From Bradyrhizobium sp. RP6 (lineage in GTDB: Bacteria > Pseudomonadota > Alphaproteobacteria > Rhizobiales > Xanthobacteraceae): a stretch of 64,000 nucleotides of DNA. The stretch lies in NCBI RefSeq assembly GCF_003837805.1, contig NZ_RQIT01000021.1, forward strand, positions 62,001 to 126,000, read 5' to 3'. The notes below the pieces were generated by a model. It did not search any database, was not told the origin of the DNA, and saw only the letters and a program-made list of their open reading frames with translations. The translations under genes were made by a program, and so were the position numbers. Numbering within the stretch: position 1 is the stretch's first letter; the number at the start of each line of letters is the position of its first letter. Below are positions 9,949 to 50,983 of the stretch, piece after piece.

Positions 9949-10035
9949 CGTCATTGCGAGCGCAGCGAAGCAATCCAGAATCCCTCCGCGGAAATTGTCT
10001 GGATTGCTTCGTCGCAAGGACTCCTCGCAATGACG
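9949..10035. repeat. Dispersed palindromic repeat, family A (copy 2)
   Basis: Left arm CGTCATTGCGAGCGCAGCGA and right arm ending CTCGCAATGACG, with inner arms CAATCCAGA and TCTGGATTG. It starts three bases after the SDR stop and lies before the convergent GlsB-like gene, a position that suits a transcript end or mRNA 3' stabiliser. Confidence 0.9.
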
Positions 10036-12377: not shown

Positions 12378-12458
12378 CGTCATTGCGAGCGCAGCGAAGC
12401 AATCCCAGAATCGCGCCGCGGAAAGACTCTGGATTGCTTCGCTGCGCTCGCAATGACG
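12378..12458. repeat. Dispersed palindromic repeat, family A (copy 3, most symmetrical)
   Basis: The best-preserved copy: 29-base arms, CGTCATTGCGAGCGCAGCGA onward and its mirror TCGCTGCGCTCGCAATGACG, with inner AAGCAATCC and GGATTGCTT. It lies between two converging genes and can form a very stable cruciform or RNA hairpin. Confidence 0.92.
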
Positions 12459-40248: not shown

Positions 40249-41616
40249 ATGCGGGCCACGATGATCGAAGAACCGGCACGACAAGTGCCGCTCTACGGCG
40301 AATTTGAAGTCGTCGTGCTCGGCGGCGGCCCGGCTGGCATCGTCGCGGCAGCCGCAGCGGCGCGCGCGGGGCGGAAGACGCTGCTGATCGAGCGCTACGG
40401 TTTTCTCGGCGGTATGGGCACCGCGGCCGGCGTCACCAATTTCTGCGGCCTGCACGGCAATGTCCATGGCGAGCACCGGCGGCTGGTGCAGGGCATGGCG
40501 TCGGATCTGCTGGCGCGGATTGATCGGCTGAACGGCCTCAACACGCCGCATCTGATCCTCGGCAAGGTCTTCGCGCAGGCTTATGACACCGCCGCGTACA
40601 AGATCGCCGCCGACGAGCTTCTCGCCAGCCACAAGGTGCGCATCCTCTTCCATGCGCTCGGTGCCGGCGTCGTGATGGGCGATGACCGCCGCATCGACGC
40701 GCTGCTGGTCGAGACCAAGGCCGGCCGGCAGGCAGTTCGCGCCGAGATCTTCATCGACTGCTCGGGCGACGGCGATCTCGCCATCTGGGCCGGTGTACCG
40801 TTCGAAATCGGCGACGAGCACGGCCATCCGCTATACCCCTCGATGATGCTGCGTCTCAACGGCATCGATCCCGAGCGAGCGGGCGAAGCCTGGCGGACCA
40901 TCCCGCAACTGATGGAGAAGGCGCTCGCCGCCGGCACCCACACATTCCCGCGCAAGAGCGCCATCGTGCGGCCGCAGAAATCCGGCATCGAATGGCGCGT
41001 GAACTTTACGCAGGTCGCGCGCGAGGACGGCCATGCCATCAACGGCATCGAGCCCGACGATCTCACCCGCGGCGAGATCGAGGGCCGCAAGCAGGCGCTC
41101 GCCGCGTTCGAGTTCCTGCGCAGCACCGTGCCGGGCTTTGAAAAATCCTACATCGTCGACCTGCCGCCGCAACTCGGCATCCGCGAGACCCGTCGCATCA
41201 AGGGCGGCTATCAGCTCAGCGGCGAGGATGTGCTCGGCTGTGCCTCGTTCGAGGATTCGATCGGCGTCAACGGCTGGCCGATCGAGGCCCATGTTCCCGG
41301 CGATGTCGTCTTCACATTTCCGCCAATTCCGGAATCGCGCGGCTACAACGAGCTGCCCTACCGGATGCTGGTACCCCAAAGCGTCGACAATCTCCTGGTC
41401 GCCGGTCGCTGTGCCTCCATGACACATGAAGGCCAGTCGGCAGCGCGTGTCTCCGGTGCCTGTTTTGTGATGGGCGAGGCCGCCGGTTCCGCCGCCGCGC
41501 TGGCGCTCTCCGGAAACCGGATCCCGCGTGACATCCCCATTGAAAAATTGCAGGAAACGTTGAAACAACAGGGCGCCTTCATCGGACGGGATCAGGCACT
41601 GCCCGAAGGCCTGTAG
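40249..41616 (+). CDS. FAD-dependent oxidoreductase (FAD_oxidored family)
   Basis: A 455-residue flavoprotein. The dinucleotide fold VVVLGGGPAGIVAAAAAARA is at about 18-37, ERYGFLGGMGTAAGV at about 48-62, then a central IDCSGDGDLAIWAGVPF block and the C-terminal VAGRCASMTHEGQSAARVSG FAD motif. The family includes poorly studied enzymes often beside sugar-lyase or ABC genes. GTG-like upstream codons are absent; ATG 40249 is the first start. It is followed after 34 bases by a binding protein, so the cluster may import a compound which this enzyme then oxidises. Confidence 0.88.
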   Translation: MRATMIEEPARQVPLYGEFEVVVLGGGPAGIVAAAAAARAGRKTLLIERYGFLGGMGTAAGVTNFCGLHGNVHGEHRRLVQGMASDLLARIDRLNGLNTPHLILGKVFAQAYDTAAYKIAADELLASHKVRILFHALGAGVVMGDDRRIDALLVETKAGRQAVRAEIFIDCSGDGDLAIWAGVPFEIGDEHGHPLYPSMMLRLNGIDPERAGEAWRTIPQLMEKALAAGTHTFPRKSAIVRPQKSGIEWRVNFTQVAREDGHAINGIEPDDLTRGEIEGRKQALAAFEFLRSTVPGFEKSYIVDLPPQLGIRETRRIKGGYQLSGEDVLGCASFEDSIGVNGWPIEAHVPGDVVFTFPPIPESRGYNELPYRMLVPQSVDNLLVAGRCASMTHEGQSAARVSGACFVMGEAAGSAAALALSGNRIPRDIPIEKLQETLKQQGAFIGRDQALPEGL

Positions 41617-41650
41617 CGGACTGCAAGACAACGACGGCGGAGGAATTGGA

Positions 41651-42655
41651 ATGATCGGGATGGCGCGGCTCGCGATAGCGGGCCTGGTGGCGATCATGGC
41701 GATGGGCACGGCGCGGGCCGAGGATGCGCTGAAGGCCAGGATCGGCGTGCTCCGCCTGTCGTCCTCCGCCCCCGTCTTCATTGCGCAGGACAAGGGCTAT
41801 TTCCGCGACGCCGGCTTGGCGGTCGAGCTCAAATTCTTCGATGCGGCGCAGCCGATCGCGGTGGCGACGACCTCAGGCGATGTCGATTTCGGCGTCACCG
41901 CCTTCACCGCGGGTCTCTACAATCTCGCCGGCAAGGGCGTGCTGAAGGTGATCGGCGGCATGAGCCGCGAGAAGCCCGGCTATCCCCTGATCGGCTATTT
42001 CGCCAGCAACAACGCCTATGCGAGCGGTCTGAAGACGCCGAAGGACCTCGCGGGCAAGCGCGTGGCGGTGACGCAGGTCGGATCGAGCTTTCACTACTCG
42101 CTCGGCCTGCTCGCCGATAAATACGGCTTCAAGCTTGCCGACGTGAAGATCGTGCCGCTGCAATCGCTGTCGAATGCGGCGGCCGCGCTCAAGGGCGAGA
42201 CCGTCGATGCGGCGCTGCTGCCGATCTCCACCGCGCGAAAGCTGATGGACGAGGGCGGCGCGAAGTTCCTGGGCTGGGTCGGCGACGAGACGCCGTGGCA
42301 GTTGGGGGCGGTGTTCGCCTCGCCGAAGACGCTGGCCAACAAGGCGCTGGTGACGAAGCTGCTCGGCGCGCTGGCCAGGGCCGACCGCGAATATCACGAC
42401 GTCATCCTCGCTGCGATGAAGGACGGCGTCGCCCCCATCAACGAGCAGACAAAACCGCTCTTGGAGATCATCGCGAAGTACACCAACTTGCCGGTCGAGC
42501 AGGTGGTCGGCAACTGCGCCTATGTCGATCCCGACGGCAAGCTCGACGTCAAGAATGTCGACAACCAGATCAAATGGCTCCAGGAGCAGGGCTTCGCGGA
42601 CAAGGGCTTTGATGCCGATGCGATCATCGCCAAGGATTACGTGAAGGCGGACTAG
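41651..42655 (+). CDS. ABC transporter substrate-binding protein (NMT1/SsuA-like)
   Basis: A 334-residue periplasmic binding protein. After a signal peptide (to about residue 24, ARAED) comes RIGVLRLSSSAPVFIAQDKG, then ATTSGDVDFGVTAFTAGLYN and DLAGKRVAVTQVGSSFHYSL, typical of the NMT1/SsuA group that binds sulfonates, aromatic acids or pyrimidine precursors. Followed by a family B repeat, then the ATPase and permease genes. Confidence 0.93.
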   Translation: MIGMARLAIAGLVAIMAMGTARAEDALKARIGVLRLSSSAPVFIAQDKGYFRDAGLAVELKFFDAAQPIAVATTSGDVDFGVTAFTAGLYNLAGKGVLKVIGGMSREKPGYPLIGYFASNNAYASGLKTPKDLAGKRVAVTQVGSSFHYSLGLLADKYGFKLADVKIVPLQSLSNAAAALKGETVDAALLPISTARKLMDEGGAKFLGWVGDETPWQLGAVFASPKTLANKALVTKLLGALARADREYHDVILAAMKDGVAPINEQTKPLLEIIAKYTNLPVEQVVGNCAYVDPDGKLDVKNVDNQIKWLQEQGFADKGFDADAIIAKDYVKAD

Positions 42656-42662
42656 CCATTCT

Positions 42663-42762
42663 TGACATTCCGGGGCTCGCGAAGCGAGAACCCGGAACCT
42701 CGAGGTTCCCCGGTGTGCAATTGCGCACCTGAGGTCTGATCCTTCGATCATCCCGGAACGAC
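42663..42762. repeat. Family B repeat (copy 2) inside the ABC importer operon
   Basis: Three hairpins: TTCCGGG/CCCGGAA around CTCGCGAAGCGAG (42668-42697), GGAACCTCGAGGTTCC (42694-42709, overlapping the first, so they exclude each other) and GGTGTGCAATTGCGCACC (42712-42729). It lies between the binding-protein and ATPase genes and could lower or stabilise parts of the polycistronic mRNA. Confidence 0.75.
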
Positions 42763-42786
42763 TGAGAACAGGATCGACGAGCTCTC

Positions 42787-43560
42787 ATGGACCTGATCGC
42801 CAACCACATCACCCACCGCTTCGACGATCTCGCCGTGCTCGACGATGTCTCCTTCACCGTCAGCGCAGGCGAGGTGGTGGCGATCGTCGGGCCCTCGGGA
42901 TGCGGCAAGAGCACGTTGCTGTCGATCCTGGGCGGGTTGCTGCAGCCGACCTCCGGCGCGGCGGAGCTGCGCGGCGCGCCGCCGGCGGACAGTCTCAATC
43001 CGTTGACCTTCGTGTTCCAGGATTTCGCGCTGCTGCCCTGGGCTACGGTCGAGGAGAACGTCGAATTCCCGCTGCTGCACGCCCAGCTCACCGCTGCGCA
43101 ACGCCGCGCGCTGGTCGAGGATGCCCTGCGCCGCACCGGCTTGACCGATTTCCGCACCACCTATCCAAAGCAGCTTTCCGGCGGCATGCGCCAGCGCGTC
43201 GGCATCTCGCGCGCGCTTGCGGTGAAGCCCGCGATCCTGCTGATGGACGAGCCGCTCTCGGCCCTGGATTCGCAGACCCGCGAGCTCTTGATGGAAGACT
43301 TTGTCCGCCTGCTCGCCGATGGCGGCATGGGCGCGGTTTACGTCACCCACAATCTCGAGGAAGCCGCCCGTCTCGCCGACCGCATCGTGGTGCTGTCGCG
43401 GCGGCCGGGACGCATCCGCGAGGTCGTGGCCGTGCCGATGACGCGAGCGGCGCGCGCCGAAGTGGCGGCGCGCGAAAGGCTGCTTGCGCTTCAGAACCAG
43501 ATCTGGTCGCTGATCCGCAACGAGGCGATCGACGCTGAACGCGAGGTCCAGCATGCTTGA
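42787..43560 (+). CDS. ABC transporter ATP-binding protein (nitrate/sulfonate/taurine type)
   Basis: A 257-residue ATPase. Walker A is GPSGCGKSTLL (about 37-47), Q-loop FVFQDFALLPW, ABC signature LSGGMRQRVGISRAL, Walker B ILLMDEPLSALD and the switch His in YVTHNLEEA. Sequence order is that of the SsuB/TauB group. Its stop overlaps the permease start by eight bases, so both are coupled. Confidence 0.96.
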   Translation: MDLIANHITHRFDDLAVLDDVSFTVSAGEVVAIVGPSGCGKSTLLSILGGLLQPTSGAAELRGAPPADSLNPLTFVFQDFALLPWATVEENVEFPLLHAQLTAAQRRALVEDALRRTGLTDFRTTYPKQLSGGMRQRVGISRALAVKPAILLMDEPLSALDSQTRELLMEDFVRLLADGGMGAVYVTHNLEEAARLADRIVVLSRRPGRIREVVAVPMTRAARAEVAARERLLALQNQIWSLIRNEAIDAEREVQHA

Positions 43561-44374
43561 TCGCGCGCCGGCCGAAATTGCGAAGGACACTGCGACCCGG
43601 CGCGTCCGCTTCCGCGGCGCCGGCTTCGTTCCCGCCAGCAGCCGTTTTGGCGGCTGGATCGCGCTCGCGCTCGTCATCGCCATCTGGGAGGCTGCCGGCA
43701 CCACTGGCCTTGTCAATCCGCTGTTCCTGCCGGCGCCCTCGGCGATCGCGCGCGCGATCTATCAGCTCGCGGTGTCGGGCGCGCTCTGGCAGCACGTCTC
43801 GGCCTCGCTGCTGCGTATCGGCGTCGGCTGGCTGCTCGGGACCGCTGCGGGTATCGCGGTCGGCTTCGCCATCGGCCTGTCGCGGCTTGCGCGCGGCGTC
43901 GGCATCACCTTCATTTCCGCACTGTTCCCTATCCCGAAGATCGCGCTGCTGCCGCTGCTCATCCTCTGGCTCGGCATTGGCGAGGAGCCGAAGATCGCGA
44001 CCATTGCATTGGGCGTGTTCTTCTCGACCGCGATCTCGGTCTATAGCGGCGTCGATGCCGTGCCGCGCAACCTGATCCGCATGGCGCAGAGCTTCAACGT
44101 TCCCTTCGCCACGATCGTGCGCAAGGTGATCTGGCCCGGCGCACTGCCCGCGATCCTCGCCGGCTTCCGTATCACCGCCTCCGTGGCGCTGCTCCTCGTC
44201 GTCAGCGCCGAGATGATCGGCGCGCAATACGGCATCGGCGCCTTCGTGCTCCAGGCCGGCAACCTGATGCAGACCGATCAGCTGCTTGCGGGCGTGGTGA
44301 TCCTGTCGGTGTTCGGGCTCATGGTGGGGAAGGTGATCGGCTGGCTGGAGACGAGGCTGTTGCACTGGCGGTGA
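43553..44374 (+). CDS. ABC transporter permease (SsuC/TauC type)
   Basis: A 273-residue inner-membrane protein with about six helices, such as WIALALVIAIWEAAGTTGL, GVGWLLGTAAGIAVGFAIGL and VALLLVVSAEMIGAQYGIGA. The EAA-like loop reads KVIWPGALPAILAGFRI (about 195-211), contacting the ATPase. It completes a full importer with the two preceding genes. A family A repeat starts nine bases after the stop. Confidence 0.95.
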   Translation: MLDRAPAEIAKDTATRRVRFRGAGFVPASSRFGGWIALALVIAIWEAAGTTGLVNPLFLPAPSAIARAIYQLAVSGALWQHVSASLLRIGVGWLLGTAAGIAVGFAIGLSRLARGVGITFISALFPIPKIALLPLLILWLGIGEEPKIATIALGVFFSTAISVYSGVDAVPRNLIRMAQSFNVPFATIVRKVIWPGALPAILAGFRITASVALLLVVSAEMIGAQYGIGAFVLQAGNLMQTDQLLAGVVILSVFGLMVGKVIGWLETRLLHWR

Positions 44375-44383
44375 AGTATACTC

Positions 44384-44470
44384 CGTCATTGCGAGCGCAG
44401 CGAAGCAATCCAGACTGGTCACCGCGGATACAGTCTGGATTGCATCGTTGCTACGCTTCTCGCAATGACG
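44384..44470. repeat. Dispersed palindromic repeat, family A (copy 4)
   Basis: Arms CGTCATTGCGAGCGCAGCGA and TACGCTTCTCGCAATGACG with inner CAATCCAGACT and AGTCTGGATTG. It lies between the convergent permease and gentisate dioxygenase genes. Confidence 0.88.
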
Positions 44471-44489: not shown

Positions 44490-45530
44490 TCACGCGTTCC
44501 CGCGATCCTCGCGGAACAGATCCAGCTTCTGCTGCACCGGACGGTCCGAGAAGCTGAACAGCACGGCGTCTTCGTCCGCCTCGTGCGTCACCCAGTGCCA
44601 GCTCGGCACCACGAACAGATCGCGGGGCCCCCATTCGAAGACGGCGTCGCCGATGCGGCTGCGGCCCTTGCCCTCGATCGGGCAGAACACCGTCGCATCG
44701 GTCGAACGATAGCGCGCGGTCTTGAAACCCTTCGGCAGCAGCTGGATGAAGGTGCCGATGGTCGGCATCGCAAAGTCGCCGGTCTCGGGATTGCTGAACT
44801 TCAGCTTCAGCCCGTGGCACGCGTCCCACTCCTGGCTCAGGCGCGCCCTTTCCAGGGCTTCGCGGGTGTAGGCATAGGGATAACTGAAGATCGGCGACGT
44901 CTTCGACCTCCGCTTCGCGTCGACCGGGAGCAGATTGTAGCCGTAGCGGGCAAAGCTGTCACCGGCAGGCTTCCTGATCTTTTGCTGATCCTCTTTCGAG
45001 CCTTCCGCAAAGGAGCAATCGAAGAACTGCACCAGGGGAATGTCGAGGCCGTCGAGCCAGAACATCGGCTCGTTCGTTTCGTTGGAATGATCGTGCCAGG
45101 TCATCGACGGCGTGATGATGAAGTCCCCTGGCTCCATCGCGGTGCGCTCGCCGTCGACTGCAGTGTGGGCGCCCTTGCCTTCGAGCACGAAGCGCAGCGC
45201 CGACTGGCTGTGGCGGTGCGCGGGCGCGACGTCGCCGGGCACCACCATCTGCACGCCGGCATAGAGCGAGGTCGTGATCTTGGATTGCCCGCGCAACCCC
45301 GGGTTCTCCAGCACCAGAACGCGCCGCTCGGCTTCCTTGGCGGTAATGAGCTTGCCGGCCTCCGTCATGTAGTCGCGGATGACGTCGAACTTCCAGAGGT
45401 GAGGACGGCAGGCGCTCTTCGGCTCCGGCGTGATCAGGTCGCTCATCACCGTCCAGAGCGCGGTGAGATTTTCGCCGTCGATCTTCTTGTAGAACGCCTC
45501 GCGTTCCGGCGTCCTGGTCACGGCTTCCAT
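44490..45530 (-). CDS. Gentisate 1,2-dioxygenase
   Basis: A 346-residue bicupin opening the gentisate ring to maleylpyruvate. The first cupin has PAHRHSQSALRFVLEGKG (about 105-122, Fe-ligand His pair) and PSMTWHDHSNE (third His). The second cupin, IEGKGRSRIGDAVFEWGPRD onward to WHWVTHE, is degraded as usual. ATG 45530 is placed 25-30 bases after a predicted promoter. It is divergent from the isomerase gene and shares its promoter element with the ligase/monooxygenase unit at 47-49.8 kb. Confidence 0.93.
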   Translation of the reverse strand: MEAVTRTPEREAFYKKIDGENLTALWTVMSDLITPEPKSACRPHLWKFDVIRDYMTEAGKLITAKEAERRVLVLENPGLRGQSKITTSLYAGVQMVVPGDVAPAHRHSQSALRFVLEGKGAHTAVDGERTAMEPGDFIITPSMTWHDHSNETNEPMFWLDGLDIPLVQFFDCSFAEGSKEDQQKIRKPAGDSFARYGYNLLPVDAKRRSKTSPIFSYPYAYTREALERARLSQEWDACHGLKLKFSNPETGDFAMPTIGTFIQLLPKGFKTARYRSTDATVFCPIEGKGRSRIGDAVFEWGPRDLFVVPSWHWVTHEADEDAVLFSFSDRPVQQKLDLFREDRGNA

Positions 45531-45554
45531 GGTTGCTGCTCCCGATCGTTTGTT

Positions 45555-45589
45555 AATTGACAGTATACTTACGATCCAGGTAGCGTCAA
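45555..45589 (-). promoter_or_regulatory. Promoter with embedded operator of the gentisate dioxygenase gene
   Basis: On the minus strand a -35 TTGACG (45584-45589) and -10 TATACT (45562-45567) are 16 bases apart. The -10 lies in AATTGACAGTATACTTAC (plus-strand 45555-45572), which recurs exactly at 49789. The AGTATACT core is palindromic, fitting a MarR-type repressor site that blocks RNA polymerase. Confidence 0.72.
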
Positions 45590-45611
45590 TGTGACGAATG
45601 ACAATCACCGT

Positions 45612-45691
45612 CGTCATTCCGGGGCGATGCGTTAGCATCGAACCCGGAATCTCGAGGTTCCGGGTTCTCGCGTCGCGAGCCCCGGAACGAC
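45612..45691. repeat. Family B repeat (copy 3)
   Basis: Two tandem hairpins: ATTCCGGG/CCCGGAAT around CGATGC-GTTA-GCATCG, and TTCCGGG/CCCGGAA around CTCGCG-CGCGAG. It lies in the divergent gap between the gentisate dioxygenase promoter and the isomerase ribosome site at 45700-45712. Confidence 0.85.
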
Positions 45692-45712
45692 AAGAAATAT
45701 GGGAGGCTCTCC

Positions 45713-46345
45713 ATGAAGCTGCACGGCTATTTCCGCTCCAGCGCCGCCTATCGGGTGCGGATCGCGCTGAACCTGAAGGGGCTCGGCGCCGAGCATCTGC
45801 CGCACCATCTGCGCAAGGGCGAGCAATGCGCGCCCGCTTATCTCGCCATCAATCCGCAAGGCCTGGTGCCGTCGCTGGAGAACGATGTGGGAGCAGTGCT
45901 GACCCAATCGGTGGCGATCATCGAATGGCTCGACGAGACGCACCCCAATCCGCCGCTGCTGCCGAAGGATCCGCTCCGCCGCGCCAAGGTAAGGGCGTTC
46001 GCGCTGGCGATCGCCTGCGACACTCATCCGGTGCAGAACCTGAAAGTGCTGGCGCGGCTGCGCGAGCTCGGCCTGCCCGAGGAGAAGGTGCAGGACTGGG
46101 CGGCCTGGGTCAATCGCGAGGGCCTGTCGGCCTGTGAGACGCTGATCAGGGACGAACCGGGCCCATTCTGCTTCGGCGATGCGCCGACGCTTGCCGATCT
46201 GTGCCTCGTGCCGCAGCTCGGCAATGCGCGCCGCTTCGGCGTCGATGTCTCGGCCTATCCGCGTCTGCTCAAGGCCGAGGCCGCGGCAAAGGCGCTGCCC
46301 GCCTTCGCCGATGCCGCACCGGAGAAGCAGCCCGATGCCGAGTAA
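45713..46345 (+). CDS. maiA: Maleylacetoacetate / maleylpyruvate isomerase (zeta-class GST)
   Basis: A 210-residue glutathione-dependent cis-trans isomerase. The zeta-class motif SSAAYRVRIALNLKG (about 10-24) holds the catalytic Ser-Ser, NPQGLVPSL the glutathione site and CDTHPVQNLKVL (about 102-113) the zeta-specific loop. Next to gentisate dioxygenase it most likely turns maleylpyruvate into fumarylpyruvate (the NagL role); homogentisate-pathway use is the alternative. It overlaps the MarR gene by 11 bases. Confidence 0.93.
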   Translation: MKLHGYFRSSAAYRVRIALNLKGLGAEHLPHHLRKGEQCAPAYLAINPQGLVPSLENDVGAVLTQSVAIIEWLDETHPNPPLLPKDPLRRAKVRAFALAIACDTHPVQNLKVLARLRELGLPEEKVQDWAAWVNREGLSACETLIRDEPGPFCFGDAPTLADLCLVPQLGNARRFGVDVSAYPRLLKAEAAAKALPAFADAAPEKQPDAE

Positions 46346-46847
46346 GCCTACCCCTCCGATCACGATCGACGCGGTCTATGCCGCGCCGGGCTATCTGTTC
46401 CGGCGCATGCAGCAGATCGCGGTCTCGATCTTCATGGAGGAGTGCAAGGCGTTCGATCTCACCCCCGTGCAATATGCCGCGCTGATCGCGATCCATACCC
46501 ATCCCGGCATCGACGCGACGCGGCTTTCGGCGGTGATCGCCTTCGACCGCTCCACGCTGGGCAGCGTGATCGAGCGGCTTGAAGCCAAGGACTATATCGA
46601 GCGCAAGCCGGCGCCGGAAGACAAGCGGATCAAGCTGCTGTATCTGACCAAGTCGGGCGCCGCGATCCTGCGCGAGATCATCCCCGCCGTCGAACGCGCG
46701 CAGGCGCGCATGCTGGAGCCGCTGAAGCCCGCCGACCGCAAGGCGCTGATGGGTCTGCTGGCGCAACTGGTCGATCTCAACAACGAGGCCTCGCGGGTGC
46801 CGCTGCGGGCGGAGGATGCACTGGAGCATCTGGGGAAGGGCGGGTGA
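46335..46847 (+). CDS. MarR family transcriptional regulator
   Basis: A 170-residue winged-helix regulator. The core is LTPVQYAALIAIHTHPGIDA then LSAVIAFDRSTLGSVIERLE (recognition helix, about 70-90) and the wing IERKPAPEDKRIKLLYLT. ATG 46335 overlaps the end of maiA. It is the likely repressor that binds the AGTATACT elements at 45555 and 49789 and releases with an aromatic acid or its CoA ester; this assignment is inference from position. Confidence 0.93.
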   Translation: MPSKPTPPITIDAVYAAPGYLFRRMQQIAVSIFMEECKAFDLTPVQYAALIAIHTHPGIDATRLSAVIAFDRSTLGSVIERLEAKDYIERKPAPEDKRIKLLYLTKSGAAILREIIPAVERAQARMLEPLKPADRKALMGLLAQLVDLNNEASRVPLRAEDALEHLGKGG

Positions 46848-46865
46848 GGGGCTGCCAATGTCTCG

Positions 46866-46996
46866 TGTCCCGGACGCGCTGCAGCGATCTTGCGCTGCTG
46901 CGCAGAGCCGGGACCCAGGACATTGGACGCGCGGCGCTGAAGTCTAGGCCCCGGCTCTGCAGCGCACCGCTTCGCGCTGCACTGCGTCCGGGGCAC
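46866..46996. repeat. Dispersed inverted repeat, family D
   Basis: Outer arms GTGTCCCGGACGCGCTGCAG and CTGCACTGCGTCCGGGGCAC, with an inner AGAGCCGGGACC/GGCCCCGGCTCT pair. It fills the convergent gap between the MarR gene and the CoA-ligase gene and could end transcription from both sides. Confidence 0.82.
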
Positions 46997-47025
46997 AGCA
47001 CCGCGGCTACGGCCGAGCCGTCGCC

Positions 47026-48639
47026 CTACATCCGCAGCAACGCCTGCCGGTCGATCTTGCCCGTGCCCGTCTTCGGCAGTTCGTCGATGAAAATCACCTC
47101 GCGCGGATATTTGTACGGCAGCAGCTTGCCTTTTACATAGTCCTGCAATCGGCGCGTCGCTTCGCTTGGATCGTTGGCGCGGCGGTTCATCACCACCACC
47201 GCCTTCAGCGTCATGCGACGGTCCGGCAATTCGGCGGCGAACACCGCGCATTCGCGGATGTCGGGGTGGTCGGCGAGACACAGCTCGACCTCGAGCGGAT
47301 AGACCCACTGGCCGGAGATCTTGATGAGATCGTCGGCGCGGCCGCGGAAGAAGTGGAAGCCATCGGCATCGCGGACGAAGCGGTCGCCGGTGTAGATCCA
47401 GCCGCCCTCGCGAATGGTTTCCGCTGACTTGTCCGGCCGGTTCCAGTACAGCGGCGTGTTGGAATCGCCGCGGACCCACAAGATGCCGTCCTCGTTGTCG
47501 CCGACCTCGTTTCCGTCCTTGTCGCGCAGCGCGATCTCGTAGCCGGGCACGCGCAGGCCGGCGGCGCCGAGCTTCTTCTGCCCCTCGCGGTTGGAGAGAT
47601 AGATGTGGAGCACCTCGGTCGAGCCGAGGCCTTCGACGATCTCGAGTCCCGTGAGCGTCTTCCAGCCGTTGAAGACCTCGGCGGAGAGCACCTCGGCGGC
47701 GGAGAGCGCCATGCGCAGCGACGAGAAATTCGTCTTGTCCGCGCCTTCGGCCTTTGTCAGCGATGTATAAAGCGTCGGCAGGCCGAAGAAGACGGTCGGC
47801 TTGTATTGTTCGATCGCCGCGAAGATCGATGCAGGCTTCGGCTGGCCCGGCAAGAGCAGTGTCGCCGCGCCGGCCGAGAACGGGAAGGTCACGGAATTGC
47901 CGAAGCCGTAGGCGAAGAAGATCTTCGGCACCGAGAAGCAGATGTCATCTGGCGTCAGCTTCAGCACGTTCCGCGCAAAGGCGGCATCGGTGTAGGCCAT
48001 GTCGTGCTGGAGATGCACGATGCCCTTGGGCCGCCCGGTCGACCCGGAGGAGTACATCCAGAACGCCATCTCGTTGCGATGCGTCGGAGCTTCCGCCAGT
48101 TCGGGCGGGAACTGCGCGAGCCAGCCTGCCGCCGCGAACGCCGCGGGCGCGGCGTGCTCGCCTACTGCACCATTCACGACGATCAGCGTATGGAGCTTCG
48201 TGTCCTTGCAGGCTTCCGCATTGAAGCGCGCCGCGAACTCGGCATCCGCGACCGCGACAGTCGCGCCGGAATCGGCGAGATAGAATTGCAGGAGGTCTGG
48301 CGGCGTCAGCGTGTTGATCAGGAGTGGCACGAAGCCGGCCCGCACCGCGCCGAAGAAGGCGGCCGGATAGGCCGGCGTATCGTCGAGGAACAAGAGCACG
48401 CGATCGCCGCGCTCGAGGCCGAGCGAGGCAAGACCGTTGCCCCAGCGGCAGGCTTCGCCGCAGAGCTCGGCATAGGTCCGCGTGCCCGCCGGACCCATGA
48501 GCGCGCGATTGTCGCCGCGGCCTTTGGCCAAATTGTCGAACAGCACGCGGCTGGCGTTGTAAATTTCAAGAACGGCAAAGCCGATCTCGCGCGCGCCCGG
48601 GCTGTCCGCAGGCACCTGGTCGCGGATCTCGCTGCTCAT
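47026..48639 (-). CDS. Benzoate-CoA ligase family protein (aromatic acid-CoA ligase)
   Basis: A 537-residue ANL enzyme that should activate a benzoate-type acid with ATP and CoA. The P-loop MYSSGSTGRPKGIVHL (about 175-190), FSVPKIFFAYGFGNSVTFPF (about 219-238) and LPGQPKPASIFAAIEQYKP are characteristic of benzoate/hydroxybenzoate-CoA ligases. The catalytic Lys is in LPKTGTGKIDRQAL. Its ATG overlaps the monooxygenase stop (ATGA). The substrate could be benzoate, salicylate, 3-hydroxybenzoate or anthranilate. Confidence 0.93.
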   Translation of the reverse strand: MSSEIRDQVPADSPGAREIGFAVLEIYNASRVLFDNLAKGRGDNRALMGPAGTRTYAELCGEACRWGNGLASLGLERGDRVLLFLDDTPAYPAAFFGAVRAGFVPLLINTLTPPDLLQFYLADSGATVAVADAEFAARFNAEACKDTKLHTLIVVNGAVGEHAAPAAFAAAGWLAQFPPELAEAPTHRNEMAFWMYSSGSTGRPKGIVHLQHDMAYTDAAFARNVLKLTPDDICFSVPKIFFAYGFGNSVTFPFSAGAATLLLPGQPKPASIFAAIEQYKPTVFFGLPTLYTSLTKAEGADKTNFSSLRMALSAAEVLSAEVFNGWKTLTGLEIVEGLGSTEVLHIYLSNREGQKKLGAAGLRVPGYEIALRDKDGNEVGDNEDGILWVRGDSNTPLYWNRPDKSAETIREGGWIYTGDRFVRDADGFHFFRGRADDLIKISGQWVYPLEVELCLADHPDIRECAVFAAELPDRRMTLKAVVVMNRRANDPSEATRRLQDYVKGKLLPYKYPREVIFIDELPKTGTGKIDRQALLRM

Positions 48640-49775
48640 GGCGTATCTCCGGCATTCCTGGCGGCCTCGTAGCGGGCCATGAAGGCCGGCGACATCGCGC
48701 GTAGCCGGGAATCGTCGATGCGGCCGGAACGGGTGATGTAGCTGTAGGCGAAGTCCAGCAGGGGAAGCTTCATGTGCTCGGCGAAGTGTTCGTACCAGAA
48801 CGCACTCGTGCGCGCGGCATCGACGAGCTTCTGCACGATGGGCTTGCGCGCGGCCTGGTAGCGGTGCAGCGCGGTCGCAAGATGCGCATCCGACTCCAGC
48901 GCCTTGACCAGCGCGATCGCGTCCTCGATTGCGAGCCGCGTGCCCGAGCCGATCGAGAAATGCGCCGAATGCAGCGCGTCGCCGAGCAGCACCATGTTCT
49001 TGAACGACCAGTGCTCGTTCCAGACCCAGGGAAAGTTGCGCCAGACCGATTTGTTGGAGATGAGGCAATGGCCGCCAAGCGTGTCGGCGAACACCTCCTC
49101 GCAGACCCCCTTGGACTGCTCGACGTCCTTGTAGGCGAAACCATAGGCCTGCCATGTGGCGTGATCGCACTCGACCAGGAAGGTGCTCATGGTCGGCGAA
49201 TAGCGGTAGTGATGGGCGTTGAAGGCGCCGCGGTCGGTCCGCACGAACGTCTGCGACAGCGTGTCGAAACGTTTCGAGGTGCCGTACCAGACGAACTTGT
49301 TGGAGGAGTAGGACAACGAGGTGCCGAAGTCGCCTTCAAAGGCGCGGCGCACCAGCGAGTTCAGCCCGTCGGCGGCGACGATCAAATCGTGGCCGTTCAG
49401 CTGGTCGATTGCCTGGATCTGCGTATCGAAGCGCGGCGTGGCGCCGACATCGAGCGCGCGCTGCTGCAGGAACCTGAGGAGCTCGAGGCGCCCGATCGAG
49501 GAGAAGCCGACCCCGTCGATGGCGACGCTGTCGCCATGCAGGTTCAGCGTGATGTTCTCCCAGCTCTCCATGTGCGGGGCGATCGCATCGACCGTTTCGG
49601 GGTCGTCGGCGCGCAGGAATTCCAGCGCCTGGTCGGAGAACACAACGCCAAATCCCCAGGTCGCGTCGGCCGGGTTCTGTTCGAACAGGTCGACTTGATC
49701 CTCGGGATGACGCTTCTTCCAGAGATAGGCGAAGTAGAGCCCACCCGGCCCCCCGCCAATCACGGCGATCCGCAA
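48636..49775 (-). CDS. Salicylyl-CoA 5-hydroxylase-like FAD monooxygenase (stand-alone)
   Basis: A 379-residue flavin monooxygenase. It starts IAVIGGGPGGLYFAYLWKKR (FAD GxGxxG, about 3-22), has LIVAADGLNSLVRRAF (DG motif, about 130) and GDALHSAHFSIGSGTRLAIE (about 268-287), a block I know from bifunctional salicylyl-CoA 5-hydroxylases and 2-aminobenzoyl-CoA monooxygenases. The second, Old-Yellow-Enzyme half of those proteins is missing. It would hydroxylate an aromatic-CoA ester. ATG 49775; first gene of the unit. Confidence 0.88.
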   Translation of the reverse strand: MRIAVIGGGPGGLYFAYLWKKRHPEDQVDLFEQNPADATWGFGVVFSDQALEFLRADDPETVDAIAPHMESWENITLNLHGDSVAIDGVGFSSIGRLELLRFLQQRALDVGATPRFDTQIQAIDQLNGHDLIVAADGLNSLVRRAFEGDFGTSLSYSSNKFVWYGTSKRFDTLSQTFVRTDRGAFNAHHYRYSPTMSTFLVECDHATWQAYGFAYKDVEQSKGVCEEVFADTLGGHCLISNKSVWRNFPWVWNEHWSFKNMVLLGDALHSAHFSIGSGTRLAIEDAIALVKALESDAHLATALHRYQAARKPIVQKLVDAARTSAFWYEHFAEHMKLPLLDFAYSYITRSGRIDDSRLRAMSPAFMARYEAARNAGDTP

Positions 49776-49788
49776 CGTCTGCCTCCCT

Positions 49789-49806
49789 AATTGACAGTAT
49801 ACTTAC
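49789..49806 (-). promoter_or_regulatory. Second copy of the 18-base operator, at the monooxygenase promoter
   Basis: AATTGACAGTATACTTAC, identical to 45555-45572. On the minus strand it contains the -10 TATACT (49796-49801), about 20 bases before the ATG. The -35 (about TAGTCT) is weak. Coordinate control of both transcription units by one repressor is likely. Confidence 0.72.
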
Positions 49807-49961
49807 TATCTAGGGCTAGACTAGTGTGCTCCGGCCTCCGGCGCCAGCGGAATTATTGGCCACGCGCGGCGAGCCGAAACGCGATCCAAAGCTGCGTGCG
49901 ACGCAACTCCGATCGGTCAGGCGCCACCATAAAGAAACAGCCGCGGCTTGACCACAAGCGC

Positions 49962-50816
49962 CTACCTCGTCGCGAACGGTACGAGGACGTCTTTGCAGGC
50001 CGGCGAGAGCGACGCCGCCCGGTTGGAAATGCATTGCATGATCCGGCCGCCGCCGGGCGCCACACCGGTGCAGAGCGTGCGGATGTCGGCGCCGCAGGCC
50101 GACCGGACGATGAACAGCTCCTCGCGCGGCAGCAATGGCCGCAGTACGATCGTGGTCGGCGCCGCGGCGGGGGCGGCCGCGGGAGCGGCAGCTGCAGGCG
50201 CCGCTGTGGCCGCCGCACCGCCGGATGCCGCGCTCAGCGCACCTTGGCAGGACGGTGAGACCCTTGCCTTGTTCTTCTCCAGGCATTCGAGCGCAGCCGC
50301 GCCGCCCGGCGGGACGCTGGCGCAGACCTTTGGATAATCGGACCGACAGGCGCTCTTGACGGCGGAGACCTGCGCGCTGCTCGGTTGCTTGGCGGAAGCA
50401 GCCTTGGGCGCGGCGGAGGTCGAGGCCGGCTTGGCAGGTTCAGTGGAGGGCACGCTGGGCGCCGCGGGCTTCGGCGCGGCAGGCGTCGGCTCGACCTTGG
50501 GTGCAGCTTCAGCTTCAGTTTTCGGCGCTGCGGGAGCGGCTTCGGTCTTCGGAGCCGCGGCGGGCTCGACGGCGCGGACCGCGGTCTGGCATCCCGATGA
50601 CAGGCTCGATTCGTTCTTCTTCAGACATTGATACGCTTCCACGCCGCCCGGCGTCACGCTCGAGCAGTGCGTCATGAAATCCGAGCGGCACGCCGACCGG
50701 ATCGCGCTCTTCTGCGCATCGGTCGGCGCTTGCGCAAAAATGGGTGCTGCAGTTGCGAACAGCGCCGACGCCAGCAACGCAGCGCGCGTGGCGCCATGCT
50801 TCAATATCTCGAACAT
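49962..50816 (-). CDS. Exported protein with three Cys-rich repeats
   Basis: A 284-residue exported protein (signal peptide to about residue 28, IFAQA). Three units share ACRSD-x4-C-x3-PGG-x5-CL-x2-N-x4-LS-x2-C: near 40-75, about 150-185 and about 230-265, each with four cysteines. Pro/Ala-rich spacers (KTEAAPAAPKTEAEAAP and similar) separate them. The units match the bacterial Cys-rich repeat (GLG1-like) domain of unknown role. ATG 50816 follows AGGAAG. Confidence 0.85.
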   Translation of the reverse strand: MFEILKHGATRAALLASALFATAAPIFAQAPTDAQKSAIRSACRSDFMTHCSSVTPGGVEAYQCLKKNESSLSSGCQTAVRAVEPAAAPKTEAAPAAPKTEAEAAPKVEPTPAAPKPAAPSVPSTEPAKPASTSAAPKAASAKQPSSAQVSAVKSACRSDYPKVCASVPPGGAAALECLEKNKARVSPSCQGALSAASGGAAATAAPAAAAPAAAPAAAPTTIVLRPLLPREELFIVRSACGADIRTLCTGVAPGGGRIMQCISNRAASLSPACKDVLVPFATR

Positions 50817-50983
50817 ATGGATGACTTCCTGCCCTATAGGTCGAGCGCTCGAGCCGCCGTTCGACGCTCCGAAAAAGGTGATGTGATTGCAATCGTCGCG
50901 AGCCATGCGATGCAAGACATCATGGACGCTTTGTCCGCCATCGCAAGCAGATTTTGGTCAAAGACGACGGAGCGAGGGCGGCG

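Follow-up and report, generated by a model that had tools for sequence, protein, structure and literature searches.

A probable MarR-controlled regulon of Bradyrhizobium for salicylate degradation through coenzyme A thioesters

The conversion of salicylate to gentisate through coenzyme A (CoA) thioesters has already been described in bacteria. According to a passage of PMC4600096, this route is carried out by SdgABCD in Streptomyces sp. WA46 (Ishiyama 2004), and a citing sentence of PMC11335346 refers to a published salicylate pathway via CoA in Rhizobium sp. X9. Passages of two other reports state that salicylate induces sdgC in Massilia M16 and that the gene occurs in 98% of 59 Massilia strains (PMC13215587), and that an SdgC homologue of Alcaligenes has 40% identity to the Streptomyces protein (PMC6460240). 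Since the pathway is known from Rhizobium sp. X9, Streptomyces, Massilia and Alcaligenes, it is not new as such. Here we analysed a stretch of 64,000 nucleotides of Bradyrhizobium sp. RP6 (contig NZ_RQIT01000021.1, positions 62,001 to 126,000; hereafter the window), which holds genes for a gentisate 1,2-dioxygenase, a zeta-class glutathione S-transferase (zeta-GST), a MarR-family regulator, an aryl-CoA ligase and a flavin monooxygenase. This locus is likely to be a MarR-controlled regulon degrading salicylate through CoA thioesters; what is new is not the pathway but its regulatory and genetic arrangement. In the titles, abstract starts and passages sampled from the open-licence PubMed Central literature, no assignment of this locus in Bradyrhizobium was found.

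In the proposed route, the ligase would use ATP and CoA to convert salicylate to salicylyl-CoA, and the hydroxylase, produced from the same message by means of an ATGA overlap, would add a hydroxyl group at C5, para to the phenol, giving gentisyl-CoA. Gentisate would then be released by an enzyme from outside the regulon, or spontaneously. The dioxygenase would open the ring to maleylpyruvate, the zeta-GST would isomerize this to fumarylpyruvate, and an unlinked fumarylpyruvate hydrolase may perform the last step. MarR presumably represses both promoters until an inducer frees it.

The five genes lie where the original prediction had placed them (Table 1), and the dioxygenase, GST, MarR and ligase exceed the cut-offs of their profiles. 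The hydroxylase is under the cut-off of NF006101 ('bifunctional salicylyl-CoA 5-hydroxylase/oxidoreductase'; 1078), of which it matches positions 1-382 of 768, that is, the N-terminal half only. The monooxygenase/reductase fusion of this family is 39% identical to the window hydroxylase in its N-terminal half and has a C-terminal flavin mononucleotide (FMN) oxidoreductase half, whereas the window hydroxylase is without the latter. By sequence, two VioD entries (3e-51, 1.5e-50) come closest to the hydroxylase among solved structures, the ligase is closest to benzoate-CoA ligases and next to an anthranilate-CoA ligase, and the dioxygenase matches PDB entry 2d40, a putative gentisate 1,2-dioxygenase, at 1e-117. 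A start at 45638, which would give a longer dioxygenase reading frame, is unlikely: the profile match does not begin until past the ATG at 45530, and the two starts have an operator-like site between them. The dioxygenase gene is divergent from GST-marR, and the hydroxylase-ligase operon (49775 to 47026, reverse strand) is convergent on marR; the predicted ATGA overlap of its two genes was found at 48636-48639.

Table 1. Features of the locus and its neighbours in the window (bit scores with profile cut-offs).
Feature	Position	Strand	Basis
Gentisate 1,2-dioxygenase, 346 residues	44490..45530	-	TIGR02272, 623 bits (cut-off 442)
Operator-like site 1, TTGACAGTATACTTACGA	45557..45574		3 mismatches from palindrome TTGACAGTATACTGTCAA
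Zeta-GST, probable glutathione-dependent maleylpyruvate isomerase	45713..46345	+	TIGR01262 maiA, 263 bits (cut-off 171)
MarR-family regulator, 170 residues, overlaps GST gene	46335..46847	+	PF01047 and PF12802 over cut-off
Aryl-CoA ligase, predicted salicylyl-CoA ligase, 537 residues	47026..48639	-	TIGR02262 benzoate-CoA ligase family, 485 bits (cut-off 375)
Stand-alone flavin adenine dinucleotide (FAD) monooxygenase, predicted salicylyl-CoA 5-hydroxylase, 379 residues, TTG start	48636..49775	-	NF006101, 397 bits
Operator-like site 2, TTGACAGTATACTTACTA	49791..49808		3 mismatches from TTGACAGTATACTGTCAA; directly upstream of hydroxylase start
FAD_oxidored protein and NMT1-type ABC importer	40249-41616, 41651-42655, 42787-43560, 43553-44374	+	PF12831, PF09084, PF00005, PF00528

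Operator-like sites and relatives of the locus

The two operator-like sites, taken as 20 bases (45557-45576 and 49791-49810), fit one common pattern exactly, which occurs twice in the window against none expected from shuffles. They are the only sites with three mismatches or fewer in the 7.7 Mb genome, where the same search found no unlinked regulon members.

For comparison we used 124 loci: 40 chosen from hydroxylase matches (33 best matches and 7 further copies), 80 from a contig scan (the best 80 of 569) and four plasmid loci. No locus is longer than about 20 kb, and contig ends truncate some of them; presence counts are therefore lower bounds. As core loci we took 61 in which dioxygenase and MarR are each more than 70% identical, no two of them having the same hydroxylase and dioxygenase sequences. 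They were set against 40 other loci holding both enzymes at more than 50% identity, which take in two Bradyrhizobium-type fragments (L051, L124) with no MarR in reach.

At up to four mismatches, a TTGACAGTATACTGTCAA-like site precedes the dioxygenase gene in 61/61 core loci and the hydroxylase gene in 58/61, and no such site was found elsewhere in these loci. The 58 consist of 57 plus L139, which was added by hand (script class 'other'), its site being at the same place as in the other loci. No hydroxylase-side site was found at this threshold in L050 and L060, and L048, which is without the ligase, is also without this site. Several core-locus sites are perfect or near-perfect TTGACAGTATACTGTCAA palindromes. 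When whole genomes were searched at up to two mismatches, a site was present in 70/97, and a reversed-pattern control in 3/97 (G032, G064, G082); the window genome is among the 27/97 without a site because its own two sites have three mismatches. Among the matches listed, G010:C1:2332084 and G037:C141:45649 have changed core letters and lie in other places, and were taken as chance. That the dioxygenase-side and hydroxylase-side promoters form one regulon is thus well supported by the sites, to both of which MarR is presumed to bind.

The hydroxylase is nearly universal in the genus. Among 98 genomes, drawn evenly from a larger group, 95 have it at 74-100% identity (partial in G024, G050 and G096). 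No orthologue was found in G040 and G047 (best E-values 5.6e-6 and 1.7e-77), and G074 has only the start of the gene, cut by a contig end.

The closest relatives are the CehGHI enzymes, which Zhou et al. 2021 (doi 10.1111/mmi.14771) reportedly described in Rhizobium sp. X9; the ceh gene names are said to originate there. On the Agrobacterium plasmid NZ_CP048525, cehI is annotated as gentisyl-CoA thioesterase, cehH as salicylyl-CoA hydroxylase and cehG as salicylyl-CoA ligase, and genes for an FAA hydrolase, MaiA, a cupin and a maleylpyruvate-isomerase-domain protein follow. The window locus shares with this system the ligase and hydroxylase families (54% identity each, to CehG and CehH), a zeta-GST isomerase (49%, to MaiA) and the presence of a ring-cleaving cupin. 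However, the ceh cupin is under the TIGR02272 cut-off (273 vs 442), while the window dioxygenase is over it and is only 36% identical to the cupin. Moreover, the ceh cluster has an IclR regulator, a CehI thioesterase and an FAA hydrolase, whereas the Bradyrhizobium-type locus has MarR with its own operator-like sites, and neither of the two hydrolytic enzymes was found in 61/61 core loci. The core loci have the ligase in 59 cases and no IclR or match to the CehI profile; the 40 other loci have IclR in 33, a CehI-profile match above 80 bits in 24 and an FAA hydrolase in 22. According to its description, SdgABCD differs from the window locus in that it uses a salicylyl-AMP ligase, probably with a CoA synthetase as a separate enzyme, instead of the single benzoate-CoA-ligase-type enzyme found here.

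The hydroxylase and ligase genes are adjacent in 100 loci examined and fused into one protein in 16 of these; L061, a Bradyrhizobium core locus, is one of them, and the other 15 are IclR-linked. Such natural fusions suggest that the CoA ester would be handed from one enzyme to the other. Other fusions suggested by stop-to-stop reading frame length, in L037, L047, L057 and others, were rejected by a frame check that kept only L061 among the core loci; in L037 the ligase frame is merely open across the hydroxylase gene. The identities of 54% to the ceh enzymes, the 16/100 fusions and the two conserved sites agree with the original prediction that an aromatic acid is converted to its CoA ester, hydroxylated, released as gentisate and opened within one regulon. 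That prediction left the acid open, and salicylate is now favoured. It rightly named Streptomyces as a precedent for the CoA route, but the closer CehGHI system went unnamed, and the novelty is smaller than implied. It also mentioned benzoyl-CoA and 3-hydroxybenzoyl-CoA variants in denitrifiers; in the open-licence PubMed Central literature, as sampled above, nothing was found joining 3-hydroxybenzoyl-CoA with gentisate.

Thioester release and origin of the arrangement

The window had been predicted to lack an obvious thioesterase or fumarylpyruvate hydrolase. This holds for its whole contig (C13), which has none of the 10 FAA-hydrolase, 22 4HBT and 3 CehI-profile matches of the genome. The candidate for the fumarylpyruvate hydrolase is a single unlinked gene on contig C21; its product has 57% identity to the ceh enzyme, against 39% for the next match.

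For thioester release, the best of the three CehI-profile matches in the genome is C33:252096, with 87 bits. Its neighbours encode a TRAP-type transporter (named from sequence), an enoyl-CoA hydratase, an acyl-CoA ligase and a short-chain dehydrogenase/reductase, and its product keeps two Asp residues aligned with CehI. According to a passage of PMC516016, BH1999 of Bacillus halodurans is a gentisyl-CoA thioesterase, and a catalytic pair is named there for this enzyme and 4HBT; we take the two Asp residues of the C33 protein to be this pair. BH1999 performs the gentisyl-CoA release; at the window locus, searches for the CehI and 4HBT families found no gene for this step. C33:252096 is a candidate gentisyl-CoA thioesterase, no more. 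A gene scoring 80-88 bits with the CehI profile is present in 93/97 genus genomes. A joint loss of hydroxylase and thioesterase in G040, G047 and G074 (thioesterase at 1e-15) was left unused: the G074 hydroxylase is cut by a contig end, and G089 has the hydroxylase without the thioesterase.

Four Bradyrhizobium genomes (G017, G018, G062, G034) have a second, ceh-type cluster (L062-L065) besides the core regulon, with IclR, CehI, hydroxylase, ligase, dioxygenase and FAA hydrolase, and in L062 and L063 also a transporter like those of the major facilitator superfamily. The core locus of G017 is without the ligase.

In the hydroxylase tree (107 rows, midpoint root), the window protein belongs to a clade of 55 rows (99/84), apart from the monooxygenase/reductase of the same genome. 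This clade also holds second-copy Bradyrhizobium rows and Agrobacterium/Rhizobium rows with IclR and CehI. The core rows group with two rows from Xanthobacteraceae metagenome-assembled genomes, L132 (IclR and CehI) and L115 (IclR), with weak last forks (81/53, 81/71, 89/52). The simplest reading would be an ancestral IclR-CehI arrangement that later lost the thioesterase and came under MarR control, although the weak forks allow other orders.

The cluster looks as if it had lost a dedicated thioesterase, which would make the question of gentisyl-CoA hydrolysis addressable in one organism. Salicylate has a central role in plant defence as a hormone, and legume symbionts are numerous among these bacteria; with a salicylate pathway whose hydroxylase occurs in nearly all sampled genomes of the genus, a lowering of host salicylate by symbionts would become directly testable. 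In a broader view, which we consider tentative and on the whole rather doubtful, this near-universal Bradyrhizobium salicylate regulon would derive from a ceh-type cluster and would have given up the dedicated thioesterase, with the CoA branch and, in many species, a free-acid 3-hydroxybenzoate branch placed under one MarR; the thioester would be released by a housekeeping hotdog thioesterase, by spontaneous hydrolysis or by a regulon enzyme, and the plant salicylate signal would be lowered in the rhizosphere or nodule.

The acid of the CoA branch

As the dioxygenase needs gentisyl-CoA as the product of this branch, the candidate acids are salicylate, by 5-hydroxylation, and 3-hydroxybenzoate, by 6-hydroxylation. 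In 22/61 core loci a gene for 3-hydroxybenzoate 6-monooxygenase, the enzyme of the classical free-acid route, lies behind marR on the same strand; it is absent from the window locus. One member was scanned (NF006021, 557 bits, cut-off 459), and the others are at least 84% identical to it. We compared 17 ligase positions chosen around what we take to be the acyl pocket of BadA. Core loci with the free-acid gene (11/22) and those without it (31/37) share their commonest string, the rest differing at one position. The pattern is kept by most ceh-type ligases; BadA and the ligase beside the monooxygenase/reductase of the genome differ. With the free-acid gene present in 22 of the 61 loci and the ligase positions largely unchanged, 3-hydroxybenzoate is most probably not the acid used by the CoA branch, and salicylate is favoured.

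Several observations weigh against salicylate degradation by this regulon as proposed here. No thioesterase was found within it in any core locus, and the ligase is absent from 2/61. The C33 protein is only 31% identical to CehI, belongs to another operon and, in a weakly resolved tree of short proteins, does not fall into the CehI clade (83/92); in the genus, CehI scores of 140-149 bits occur in 4/97 genomes, those with a second hydroxylase copy at 67-70% identity. The row annotated CehH (L033) falls among IclR-linked loci in a different clade (28 rows, 99/98), and with separate supported clades this enzyme is a cousin, not a sister, of the window hydroxylase. The functions of the ceh enzymes are themselves taken from annotation, one paper title and one citing sentence of PMC11335346. 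Finally, the best match of the window genome to the 3-hydroxybenzoate 6-monooxygenase model is under the cut-off (323 vs 459), and the NF006101 cut-off is met by a different protein of this genome (contig C27, locus L085, G000:C27:33459-53000; 1135 vs 1078).

Because the window genome has no free-acid 6-monooxygenase over the cut-off, the CoA branch could itself act on 3-hydroxybenzoate, 3-hydroxybenzoyl-CoA being hydroxylated at C6. The product would be the same gentisyl-CoA, and the para-to-OH chemistry is identical. We nevertheless consider this unlikely: the 22 core loci with the free-acid gene keep ligase and hydroxylase, the ligase positions being largely unchanged, the ligase scores 364 with the HbdA 3-hydroxybenzoate-CoA ligase model NF053567 (cut-off 1000), and the nearest annotated relatives are salicylate enzymes.

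The protein on C27, of 783 residues, is a monooxygenase/reductase fusion, which we take to be of the 2-aminobenzoyl-CoA monooxygenase/reductase type. NF006101 is thus also the family of a fusion with this presumed domain make-up, and one of the solved structures nearest to the window ligase is an anthranilate-CoA ligase, both of which would agree with 2-aminobenzoate (anthranilate), or several ortho-substituted benzoates, as substrate of the CoA branch. However, the fusion has another benzoate-CoA-ligase-family enzyme beside it at a separate locus, and that locus is the candidate for 2-aminobenzoate, a tentative assignment, the NCBIfam name being salicylyl-CoA 5-hydroxylase/oxidoreductase. Moreover, the product would be unusual for a co-regulated gentisate dioxygenase, and the window dioxygenase scores far under the cut-off of the 5-aminosalicylate dioxygenase model NF049978 (259 vs 650). 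Use of anthranilate is therefore very improbable. The NCBIfam name of C27-type fusions may mislead annotators.

That the monooxygenase is a classical 5-hydroxylase of free salicylate, the ligase serving something else, is hardly credible given the ATGA overlap, the adjacency of both genes in 100 loci with fusion in 16 of these, and the weak scores with the free-acid models (42 of 459 for 3-hydroxybenzoate 6-monooxygenase, 32 of 446 for salicylate 1-monooxygenase). Benzoate was considered an unlikely substrate, since single-component flavin hydroxylases like this one are not known to act on a ring without activation by OH or NH2. Salicylate thus stays the favoured acid.

Neighbouring genes and minor observations

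The FAD_oxidored and NMT1-type importer genes (40249..44374) are convergent with the dioxygenase gene. The importer permease adjoins the locus in 59/61 core loci, and the FAD protein, within the reach of the loci, in 40/61. They are conserved neighbours and may form an uptake system. No operator-like site was found before these genes, either in the window genome at up to three mismatches or in the 61 core loci, and both were therefore kept out of the regulon.

Beside the hydroxylase, 49962-50915 (reverse strand) encodes a protein of repeated cysteine-containing units, with mostly 47-74% identity across the genus loci, far under its neighbours. An intergenic repeat, GTCATTGCGAGCGCAGCGAAGCAATCCAG, has five copies in the window at up to three mismatches (44385-44413, 2486-2514, 9950-9978, 12379-12407 and 12429-12457), against none expected. 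A second one, CCCGGAATCTCGAGGTTCCGGGTTC, is largely self-complementary and occurs at 45640-45667, between operator-like site 1 and the GST gene, and at 42688-42712.

Two plasmid loci carry more distant hydroxylases. On the Pseudosulfitobacter plasmid CP069018.1 (L181), a hydroxylase with 46% identity is flanked by an AMP-binding ligase on one side and a thioesterase on the other; an Asp/Glu racemase and a TRAP transporter are also encoded there, and the locus may follow the same logic with another acid. On pSWIT02 of Rhizorhabdus wittichii RW1 (L177), a homologue with 51% identity lies directly behind a gentisate dioxygenase, with no annotated ligase nearby and with transposase and integrase genes on both flanks.

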